Shown here: positions 41,081 to 42,863 of the stretch, piece after piece
Numbering within the stretch: position 1 is the stretch's first letter
Layout of the letters: every line of letters begins with the position of its first letter
Source of the DNA: Ureibacillus massiliensis 4400831 = CIP 108448 = CCUG 49529
GTDB lineage: Bacteria > Bacillota > Bacilli > Bacillales_A > Planococcaceae
Direction: 5' to 3'
DNA: 64,000 nt
NCBI RefSeq assembly: GCF_000772965.1
Contig: NZ_JPVQ01000005.1
Coordinates: 62,001 to 126,000 of the forward strand
Notes under the pieces: generated by a model
Told to the model about the DNA's origin: nothing
Seen by the model: only the letters and a program-made list of their open reading frames with translations
The model's database searches: none
Position numbers and translations under genes: made by a program

Positions 41081-41317
41081 TTAGAATAAAGGATTTTCTT
41101 CAATGTATTGATAAATCTTCCCTGTTAATTCTTCAGGAGTGTCAGCCTCTACAATATCACCATTCACAAGTGCGTAAAATGTGCTGTCACATAATGTACA
41201 GTAGCTTAAACAACCGTACTCAAGTACATCTATATTAGGATCTTTTTCTAATATTTCATAAGTTTCTTGTGCGCCCTTTGCTAGATTGCTAATACAAAAT
41301 TCTACTAATGGGTTCAT
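41081..41317 (-). CDS. yuzB: DUF1450 protein YuzB
   Basis: Protein of 78 residues when started at 41317 ([17 protein letters not shown]) after GAGGTGA; the same length as B. subtilis YuzB. It has the fold and cysteine pattern of a small thioredoxin-like/ferredoxin-like domain: Cys8, and [10 protein letters not shown] near residues 36-45, followed by [18 protein letters not shown]. Function unknown. It is divergent from yutJ with a 472-base gap that holds the repeat array and Rex sites. Placement beside yutJ is conserved with B. subtilis. Confidence 0.9.
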
Positions 41318-41426
41318 TGGAGTCACCTCAAATAAAAATCCTACTCTGTTTTTAGGATTTCGTCAATTTATCCGATTTAAATGTGGTTTATCCATCCATC
41401 TTGTGGGGGCTATTATATTAGTGATT

Positions 41427-41613
41427 AGTCTATTATCAGCACGAGATTGTCTAATATCCGCCTCGGAATGTCTAATATCATACTCGGATTGTCTATTATC
41501 CTAAAGCTTTTGTCTATTATTTAGAACACGCTCCTGCTCTTGTCTAATATCCGTCCGGGATTGTCTATTATCGGATCGCCTTTGTCTATTAAACCTGCAT
41601 GCTCGTCTATATC
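41427..41613. repeat. Nine TGTCTAWTATC motifs with 21-bp period
   Basis: Copies begin at 41427, 41448, 41469, 41490, 41511, 41541, 41562, 41583 and 41604. Seven of the eight steps are exactly 21 bp and one is 30. The core is TGTCTAATATC or TGTCTATTATC (copy 1 AGTC..., copy 5 ends TT, copy 8 ends AAA, copy 9 lacks one base). The 10-base spacers vary but several end CGGA/CGGGA-T just before the next copy. A weaker CTATTAT at 41410 may be another unit. 21 bp equals two helical turns, so all copies face the same side of the DNA. Confidence 0.9.
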
Positions 41614-41678: not shown

Positions 41679-41696
41679 TTGTGAAATTTTTCACAA
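41679..41696. promoter_or_regulatory. Rex operator 1
   Basis: TTGTGAAATTTTTCACAA is an exact match to the Rex consensus TTGTGAAnnnnTTCACAA. Rex represses when NADH is low relative to NAD+ and lets go when NADH rises. 35 bp upstream of the second site. Confidence 0.9.
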
Positions 41697-41713
41697 AAAA
41701 TTTCGAAATGATA

Positions 41714-41731
41714 TTGTGAAAAGTATCACAA
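41714..41731. promoter_or_regulatory. Rex operator 2
   Basis: TTGTGAAAAGTATCACAA keeps the TTGTGA/TCACAA half-sites of the Rex consensus. Its first six bases are also the proposed yutJ -35 box. Confidence 0.82.
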
Positions 41732-41742
41732 TGAGCTATACT
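41714..41742 (+). promoter_or_regulatory. yutJ promoter
   Basis: TTGTGA (41714-41719), a 17-base spacer and TATACT (41737-41742). The -35 box overlaps Rex operator 2, so Rex binding would exclude RNA polymerase. Confidence 0.72.
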
Positions 41743-41789: not shown

Positions 41790-42863
41790 ATGAAAAACTT
41801 AGTATTATTAGGCGGAGGTTATGGCAACATGCGTATTTTACATCGCCTTTTGCCAAACAATTTCCCTGAAGACACGATGATAACATTGATTGACAGAACA
41901 CCGTTTCATAGCTTAAAAACAGAGTTTTATGCATTGGCAGCAGGTACTTCTACTGATAAAGAAGTTCGTGTTACATTTCCAGAGCATCCTAGATTAGATA
42001 CTGTATACGGTGAAATAACTAAAATTGATACTAAAGAGAAACTTGTTTATTTAGATAAAGATCGAACTGTACAATACGATGATTTAGTAATTGGGCTTGG
42101 TTGTGAAGATAAATATCACGATGTACCAGGAGCTGAAGAATATACATATAGTATTCAGACAATCGCTAAGTCACGTTGTACGTTTGAAAAACTATGTGGT
42201 TTGCCTGCTGGTTCAACAGTTGCGATTGTTGGAGCTGGTTTAAGTGGTATTGAATTAGCAAGTGAATTACGCGAAAGTAGAGAAGATCTTAAAATTAAGC
42301 TTTTCGATCGTTCACACCGTATATTACGAGAGTTCCCTGAGAAACTAAGTAATTATGTGAAATCATGGTTTGAAAAAAATAATGTTGAAGTGATTGCAGA
42401 ATCAAACATTACAAAAGTTGAACCAAATCTTTTATTTAATCACGAAGATGTTATAGAAGTTGATTCAGTTGTTTGGACTGCGGGAGTTCAGCCTGTAAAA
42501 GTTGTAAGAGATATTGAGGATATTGAAAAGGATTCAAAGGAACGCCCGATAATAAATCAATATTTCCAATTAATCAATGATGAACATGTATATGTGATTG
42601 GTGACTGTGCTTCATCAGAGCTACCTCCAAGTGCTCAATTAGCAGAAGAACAGGCTGAGCGTGTAGTAAAAGTACTGAAAGCACGTTTTAAAAATGAACC
42701 ATTACCTGAAAAAATGCCTGAAATTAAGTTGAAAGGCTATTTAGGTTCATTAGGTAAAAAGCACGGCTTTGCCCATGTTATGGATACGGCTGTAACCGGA
42801 CGCCTTGCTAGATTAATGAAATCTGGCTATCTTTGGTTTTATAAACGTCAAGTTGAATCATAA
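41790..42863 (+). CDS. yutJ: NADH dehydrogenase-like flavoprotein YutJ
   Basis: Protein of 357 residues related to type II NADH dehydrogenases; B. subtilis YutJ is of similar length. The FAD-binding motif is LVLLGGGYGNMRIL at the N-terminus, the NADH-binding motif is VAIVGAGLSGIELASEL near residue 150, and the second FAD motif is VYVIGDCASSELPPSAQLAEEQA. A C-terminal region with basic and aromatic residues (LMKSGYLWFYKRQVES) could touch the membrane. It probably passes electrons from NADH to menaquinone. Two Rex sites and an overlapping promoter suggest induction by high NADH, as known for B. subtilis yjlC-ndh. Confidence 0.9.
   Translation: MKNLVLLGGGYGNMRILHRLLPNNFPEDTMITLIDRTPFHSLKTEFYALAAGTSTDKEVRVTFPEHPRLDTVYGEITKIDTKEKLVYLDKDRTVQYDDLVIGLGCEDKYHDVPGAEEYTYSIQTIAKSRCTFEKLCGLPAGSTVAIVGAGLSGIELASELRESREDLKIKLFDRSHRILREFPEKLSNYVKSWFEKNNVEVIAESNITKVEPNLLFNHEDVIEVDSVVWTAGVQPVKVVRDIEDIEKDSKERPIINQYFQLINDEHVYVIGDCASSELPPSAQLAEEQAERVVKVLKARFKNEPLPEKMPEIKLKGYLGSLGKKHGFAHVMDTAVTGRLARLMKSGYLWFYKRQVES

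Follow-up and report, generated by a model that had tools for sequence, protein, structure and literature searches.

In CRISPR loci a nuclease gene adjoins an array of conserved and variable parts. Iteron and partition-site arrays consist of direct repeats at about two helical turns, to which the product of a nearby gene binds. NERD domains are widespread among bacteria, and to our knowledge the substrates of stand-alone NERD proteins are not known. Extragenic repeats can also accompany a chromosomal gene, and in the excerpts of the RAYT-REPIN account a different REPIN cluster lies beside each single-copy RAYT (PMC3116915). Intergenic direct repeats of TAACTGA occur in Beggiatoaceae, Cyanobacteria and Bacteroidetes, and the binding partner of the heptamer repeats in Beggiatoaceae is only conjectured in the excerpts of that source (PMC4679880).

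Here we describe a tandem array in a 64,000-nucleotide stretch of the Ureibacillus massiliensis genome, referred to below as the window, and its relation to a family of chromosomal genes for NERD-domain proteins. The link between protein and array points to an undescribed protein-plus-repeat system.

A phased array in the yuzB-yutJ gap

The features of the locus are collected in Table 1. The original prediction was a nine-copy array with a 21-bp period. The units start at 41427, 41448, 41469, 41490, 41511, 41541, 41562, 41583 and 41604, and these starts confirm that seven of the eight intervals are 21 bp and one is 30 (in order 21, 21, 21, 21, 30, 21, 21 and 21). Mismatches to TGTCTAWTATC number 1, 0, 0, 0, 1, 0, 0, 2 and 5 from the first unit to the last. 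Therefore, the array is real with eight good units, and the ninth copy (41604), with five mismatches, is poor. TRF reports a 21-bp array at 41423-41500.

Table 1. Features of the array locus, in window coordinates
Feature	Position	Strand	Remarks
Array with TTGTCTAWTATC-type core, eight good units and one poor unit	41427..41613	+	21-bp step, one 30-bp step
Degenerate upstream unit GGGCTATTATA	41407..41417	+	20 bp before unit 41427; three mismatches to TGTCTAWTATC
30-bp unit with pyrimidine-rich end ..CGCTCCTGCTCT	41511..41540	+	like the 30-bp units in the C45, C125 and C145 arrays of this genome
Gene for DUF1450 protein (yuzB in the original prediction), left neighbour	41081..41326	-	divergent from yutJ; outside the array system
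Gene for yutJ-type pyridine nucleotide-disulphide oxidoreductase, right neighbour	41790..42863	+	outside the array system
Two Rex-type palindromes upstream of yutJ	about 41679-41696, 41713-41732		outside the array system

The longest chain of units at exactly 21 bp with at most two mismatches has five members and lies on the plus strand of the window, whereas in 59 of 60 dinucleotide shuffles, both strands included, no chain exceeded a single unit, and the remaining shuffle reached two. The spacing of the array is beyond chance. At one mismatch the 11-mer is not rare within the window (7 found against 3.64 expected), and the unusual property of the array is its spacing rather than the frequency of the 11-mer. 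A scan of the window for a second run with 21-bp periodicity at 38/63 found none.

The array occupies a divergent gap, with 80 bp separating it from yuzB and about 177-186 bp from yutJ. The first Rex-type palindrome lies some 66 bp away, as predicted; following the original prediction, we take these palindromes to be putative Rex sites. A possible likeness to the Spo0A box (TGNCGAA) was also seen. Between 41320 and 41800 there are 8 promoter-like sites against 1.9 expected, and three of them, weak matches (TAGACA, 17 nt, GACAAT; 9/12), fall on the minus strand at 41446-41588. Such weak matches, which might be read as tandem promoters at the array, follow from the core and its 21-bp step.

A genome-wide array family

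The window array is one member of a genome-wide array family. The 12-mer TTGTCTAWTATC occurs 100 times in the 4.0-Mb draft genome, with none for the reversed control, and 99 of the copies lie inside 11 array loci, the window included; the remaining one is on contig C155. A search of the genome for the core at 21-bp spacing, as had been proposed, returned at least 11 arrays with the common core TTGTCTAWTA, so that the core of the window recurs at ten further loci. The arrays of this genome are intergenic and have 2 to 45 units. Long arrays contain super-units of 93 or 102 bp, made of 21-bp units and one 30- or 18-bp step.

The search of relatives covered 261 family genomes from 19 genera and looked for TGNCTAWTA twice at 21 bp. 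The period recurs, with matching pairs in 30/261 genomes and 6/19 genera, although some of these are single pairs that perhaps arose by chance. The pairs number 379 in G022, 90 in this genome, 71 in G007 and 55 in G013, and a reversed control gave 0 to 2 per genome, except in G221 and G222. The latter two genomes have a second dispersed array family with a 14-bp core, ATAATCGGTCGGTY, at the same 21-bp step (loci L132-L151). Its arrays have 3-8 units, with one of 15; they open with a recurring unit, often GGAATCGGTCGGTT, and close with another, often CGGTCAAC. The NERD gene of this second family in G221 and G222 was not located. Related cores at 21 bp are also present in G220, G214, G215 and G216. 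Since different cores share the same step across families, the step is more conserved than the core.

Unit number differs between close relatives, and both unit and super-unit number change fast. At locus L154, G215 has a decayed remnant of a second-family array; the array at this place counts six units in G221 and two fewer in G222. The 3.0-Mb genome G022, of the same genus, has many arrays with 103-104-bp super-units (L086-L096). Among the contigs of this genome that were covered, two (C2 and C13) end in or soon after an array, and assemblies therefore seem to break there.

The home locus beside eno

The home array lies between eno and a NERD-domain gene, directly 3' of the NERD gene. The product of the gene that faces eno across the array matches PF08378 with an E-value of 1.2e-14 (55.1 bits against a cut-off of 22.1). 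A clear 21-bp array (lag-21 identity of at least 40/63) is present downstream of eno in 12/30 genomes, several of the 30 eno loci ending early at contig ends, and in 12/12 cases it is antisense to eno. The cores are lineage-specific, for example TGTCTATTA, TGGCTGATA, TTTCTATTA, TGGCGATTA and TGGCGGATT. On a tree of eno-plus-yutJ proteins the presence of the array family requires 4 changes, compared with 8.3 when the labels are shuffled, which amounts to vertical inheritance with losses by clade.

Close orthologues of this NERD protein (54-61% identity) are found in 10 of the 25 genus genomes (G000, which is this genome, G002, G003, G006, G007, G009, G011, G017, G021 and G022). All ten have the array family of the window, which the remaining 15 lack save for G013, G010 and G015 (Fisher p 1e-4, phylogeny ignored). 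The 12 genomes counted as lacking the family are those with no exact TGNCTAWTA pair and no eno array, two of their eno loci being cut short. Among these genomes, G020 shows one pair, which carries one mismatch, and several have arrays with other cores behind NERD paralogues. G013 is without a close NERD orthologue and an eno array, yet it has many dispersed arrays. Arrays are also present in G015, where all there is of a NERD gene is a remnant, and in G010, where the match is no higher than 40%. In G011 and G006 the NERD-linked core is TGGCGAWTA, as against TGTCTAWTA in the dispersed arrays. This mismatch and the arrays of G013 could represent recent switches or relics.

Arrays behind NERD-family genes

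The association extends to the NERD family as a whole. Periodicity at 21 bp (lag-21 identity of at least 36/63 within 700 nt 3' of the stop codon) follows 64/77 NERD-family genes, a set that leaves out two N-masked loci and two duplicates; 13/77 have no clear 3' array. The control flanks gave 0/53, comprising yutJ 3' flanks (0/23, maximum 28) and eno 5' flanks (0/30, maximum 29). A Fisher comparison of NERD 3' flanks with control flanks (n=54) gave p 1e-24 for loci that are not independent, several being from near relatives (e.g. L278 and L299). The 54 include a misplaced yutJ flank from G018, whose contig stops at yutJ, and this flank is left out of the 53. The NERD loci comprise 30 from the search and 60 chosen from the listed matches; they are top-scoring, come from related genomes and are non-random. 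In a larger set that includes duplicates and the two N-masked loci, 79/88 NERD 3' flanks exceed the maximum of 40 shuffles, the two N-masked loci not being among the 79. NERD 5' flanks also reach 38/63 in 4/66 cases. A wider control with ORFs of at least 150 aa at the yutJ and eno loci had 18/139 periodic 3' flanks. By position, these 18 belong to eno, to the gene facing eno or to the gene left of the window array, and they face arrays already known.

The linked arrays begin a median of 32 nt past the NERD stop codon (65 arrays). Their cores differ between paralogues, and protein identity correlates with unit similarity (Mantel r 0.45, 0/2000 permutations). Several NERD-array pairs coexist in this genome, namely TTGTCTATTATC on contig C45 and GGACACAAAAT..ATCGAT and GCGAGTATT on contig C1.

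Properties of the NERD protein

The NERD domain (Pfam PF08378) was recognized in 20/20 aligned proteins and a transposase-like zinc ribbon, weakly, in 6/20. A wider alignment of 81 proteins of 290-337 aa includes two duplicates and dropped ORFs with stops or shorter than 280 aa. Residues R21, G42, G45, E46, D81, K96, G100, Q129 and R132 are kept in 99-100% of the 81, and position 94 holds E in 98% of them but D in the protein of this genome. We take E46, D81, E/D94-x-K96 and Q129 to be a PD-(D/E)XK-type residue set, and these conserved residues make the protein a putative nuclease. Cysteines C229, C232, C247 and C250, likewise kept in 99-100% of the 81 proteins, form a predicted zinc ribbon. 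The C-terminal 70 residues contain ..RITNxEFREFFGIxSxxxASKILxRLxLExxGxxRGRxYxIPE. This region looks like a winged helix, a putative assignment that Pfam does not make; a single-sequence structure model (pLDDT 35) was too poor there.

Among 25 Pfam families listed for the NERD proteins, the IS200/IS605-type tyrosine transposase family is absent. Defence libraries gave only weak partial matches, including the NERD parts of PglW and MAD6, far below cut-offs. With one query per collection, the protein was unmatched in plasmid and phage collections at 1e-10, and so was the array. A phage or plasmid origin was rejected on these grounds. A viral contig (L300) encodes a distant NERD relative, with 21% identity over residues 42-234.

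A model for the arrays and its rivals

The window array is probably a dispersed copy of the cognate sites of a chromosomal NERD-family nuclease. The zinc ribbon and the putative C-terminal winged helix would recognize the 9-12 bp core, and the 21-bp step, equal to two helical turns, would place the protomers on one face of the DNA. The idea of phased sites for one protein, already part of the original prediction, fits well in that the core is kept and the 21-bp step is kept across differing cores. The nuclease domain may nick or cut at the arrays, and repair would then bring about gain or loss of units and duplication of the 93-104-bp super-units. Repair may also, rarely, place copies of arrays in further intergenic gaps; no empty site showing the clean ends of an insertion came to light. 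We propose that, as a result of nicking or cutting and repair at the arrays, the NERD protein and its core drift together. The array beside yutJ would be a bystander landing place rather than a yutJ operator. A broader proposal can be advanced only tentatively, and we stop just short of favouring it: each stand-alone NERD nuclease would own a private 3' array phased at 21 bp, read its core specifically, and seed and maintain more arrays between genes, with several orthogonal pairs in one genome and the core rewritten as the protein evolves. Such pairs would constitute a new class of enzyme plus repeat in the Caryophanaceae/Planococcaceae.

An alternative that we consider unlikely, while taking it seriously, is that the NERD protein binds the arrays in a structural or regulatory capacity only, serving autoregulation, chromosome organization or the insulation of transcription. 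The nuclease site would be unused there, and the arrays would spread by ordinary recombination. The linkage and phasing evidence is common to this and the nuclease reading, and the gene context is in its favour, as arrays prefer convergent gaps and several sit by terminator-like hairpins, where they would spare promoters. The arrays occupy 23 convergent, 5 divergent and 34 tandem gaps, against 36, 68 and 96 in the background (convergent versus divergent p 9e-6). Against a purely structural role, the catalytic-type residues are kept in at least 98% of the 81 proteins, which suggests that enzyme activity matters.

Several arrays adjoin the hairpins, as seen by eye and uncounted. Because arrays favour convergent gaps, several of them by hairpins, the divergent gap of the window is unusual. 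An earlier choice of neighbours omitted ORFs overlapping arrays. In a check of this choice, 2/89 arrays ran into an ORF that extends 300 nt or more beyond the array, the overlap being 35 nt at L123 and 123 nt at L052. Array orientation is opposite to the local GC skew in 43 cases and the same in 24, with p 0.027 when orthologous loci are counted twice. The arrays of G239 (7/7; L104, L107-L111) and G007 (8/9) run against the skew and other genomes are mixed; the second family, with 12/22 against it, has no bias.

It is improbable that the arrays are satellite-like repeats, whether neutral or selfish, that lack a protein of their own, their link to NERD genes being an accident of shared ancestry around eno. 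Fast change in unit and super-unit number and the avoidance of genes and of divergent promoter gaps speak for it. This reading is already strained by the NERD linkage in 64/77 genes, and the link recurs at many paralogue loci away from eno with unrelated cores. Moreover, the core is far better kept than the spacer. Between the orthologous arrays of G222 and G221, changes affect 7/580 core, 43/285 spacer and 225/1805 flank positions, and between those of G059, which is Lysinibacillus odysseyi going by matching array positions, and G161 they affect 12/189, 118/271 and 302/870. These comparisons bear out the early observation that the core is conserved while the spacers vary. Where two arrays differ in unit number, the alignment sets spacers against each other that are not homologous, and the clean cases are two pairs with equal unit numbers and substitutions, L134/L141 (core 2/84, spacer 15/41, flank 40/228) and L045/L043 (2/63, 38/83 and 58/233). 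Core conservation is biased upwards because the core sites were picked by motif.

Arrays of one genome also agree in their core. At the free core position 3, agreement in the majority base between arrays of one genome is 0.80, against 0.39 shuffled, whereas the spacers of different arrays in one genome have an identity of 0.32-0.37 against a composition expectation of 0.27-0.29. A core that is kept among nearly unrelated spacers within a genome fits recognition by a trans-acting factor. Exceptional intervals cluster at 18-20, 29-30 and 40-41 bp, in counts shaped by the list of intervals allowed for one-mismatch sites. The 40-41 bp class is 21 + 19 bp across a core that has been lost, so that helical phase has modest support beyond the 21-bp step itself.

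Control of yutJ or yuzB by the array as an operator is very improbable. The position of the array in the divergent yuzB-yutJ gap suggests such a role. The same-genus set comprises 25 genomes, of which 24 have a yutJ orthologue (G010 has only a 22% match). The array is present in the gap of only 2/24, this genome and its nearest relative, G013, and neither an exact core search nor core-free periodicity found it in the other 22. In G013 the array is decayed: YutJ is 98% identical to that of this genome, and the gap array is shorter and mutated. Over the 600 nt that precede yutJ, lag-21 identity reaches 45/63 in this genome and 32 in G013; elsewhere it stays at 28 or below, except in G007 (35), which has an array beyond yuzB. 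At the window locus the two close relatives differ at 5/36 core, 15/48 spacer and 19/162 flank positions; for core versus spacer p is 0.075, and the core is not clearly better kept than the flank. The proposed alignment of orthologous gaps, carried out for six, found the Rex-type palindromes by yutJ kept in all and the array missing from four of these relatives. Since the array is missing from most yuzB-yutJ gaps of the genus, it is unnecessary for yutJ control in the genus. The suggested tie to yutJ and yuzB is not supported by this survey, and the same core recurs at the ten other loci. Absence from related genomes, which was to count against a DNA-binding array, is found at the yutJ locus and not for the array family. 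A yutJ-specific operator was rejected on both forms of the gap survey.

We regard it as similarly remote that the arrays act as RNA, co-transcribed with the NERD gene and processed to guides or to protein-binding RNA. Among orthologues, home arrays follow the NERD gene on its 3' side and keep one orientation, and the unit is about as long as a small guide. In opposition, dispersed arrays have mixed orientation to neighbouring genes, spacers drift freely, and folding is not clearly better than that of shuffles (8 strands, z -1.7 to 2.4). The best-folding strand, the plus strand of L132, beats all but 12/200 shuffles and the other strands are ordinary. An Rfam search found no family at an array. 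We rejected an RNA structure because folding is near that of shuffles and no Rfam family falls at the arrays. A Bacillaceae-1 RNA (RF01690) lies at L104:2172-2238, a few hundred bp from an array of G239.

The step of 21 bp is also seven codons, and the check for a decayed coding repeat that had been called for disfavours a coding origin. No reading frame is open in more than 19/64 arrays of the window's family, and none is open in any of the 12 arrays of G022. The frame reading N-R/S-Q or N-R-S-V is open in 19/64 against 10.2 shuffled, and one frame of the second family is open in 19/21 arrays against 14.7. The excess in the N-R/S-Q frame is perhaps due to base composition or to repeated super-units. 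A real or decayed heptapeptide repeat, favoured by the seven-codon step and the open-array excess, is scarcely credible and was rejected, as every frame is closed in the majority of arrays of the window's family, most of the odd intervals do not divide by 3 (19, 20, 22, 29, 40 and 41 shift the frame), and super-units are 103-104 bp.

Comparison with known systems

The preferred reading, cognate sites of a NERD-family nuclease, can be compared with the systems introduced above. Among the open-licence papers listed, no title or abstract start describes a link between NERD proteins and arrays. The arrays differ from CRISPR arrays in having 21-bp units, dispersed copies and spacers of 7-12 bp, too short for guides and longer only in the 29-41-bp intervals; the long unique spacers of CRISPR arrays are lacking. 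None of the array neighbours, identified by ORF translation with a few run against Pfam, was recognized as a Cas protein. In contrast to iteron and partition-site arrays, those described here are chromosomal and dispersed, and they are unmatched in plasmid and phage collections (one query each). The protein shares with PglW of BREX and with MAD6 the NERD domain (PF08378), found in all 20 aligned proteins. It differs from both in being a stand-alone protein of 290-337 aa with a zinc ribbon, an extra C-terminal region and no kinase, and in its link to arrays.

The TAACTGA repeats resemble the arrays as many sets of short intergenic direct repeats with a patchy phylogenetic distribution. They are heptamers, however, and in the best-studied genome they lie mostly just upstream of start codons, according to the excerpts of the source (PMC4679880). 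The arrays have a 21-bp step with variable spacers, are mostly beyond gene ends and are linked to a gene for a putative nuclease.

The RAYT-REPIN system is the closest analogue in logic, with unrelated parts. As far as the excerpts of its description go, both systems have a chromosomal enzyme gene with its own adjoining repeat flavour and dispersed extragenic copies, and both have several distinct enzyme-repeat pairs per genome (PMC3116915). An own repeat flavour accompanies 64/77 NERD genes, and dispersed copies of the home core occupy at least 11 loci in this genome. However, the RAYT is a tyrosine transposase, whereas the array-linked enzyme has a NERD domain and is a putative nuclease. The REP doublets are palindromic, whereas the arrays are phased direct tandem repeats of a non-palindromic core. 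Since the parts differ completely, the NERD-array system is not a member of the RAYT-REPIN group.

The link explains otherwise odd intergenic arrays at which several contigs end, and through it a large protein family gains a predicted DNA substrate. The NERD-array pairs are a natural set of proteins and sites for studying the evolution of DNA recognition. Together they would show for a second time, and with parts of unrelated origin, the logic of RAYT and REPIN, in which a long-lived enzyme is coupled to extragenic repeats.
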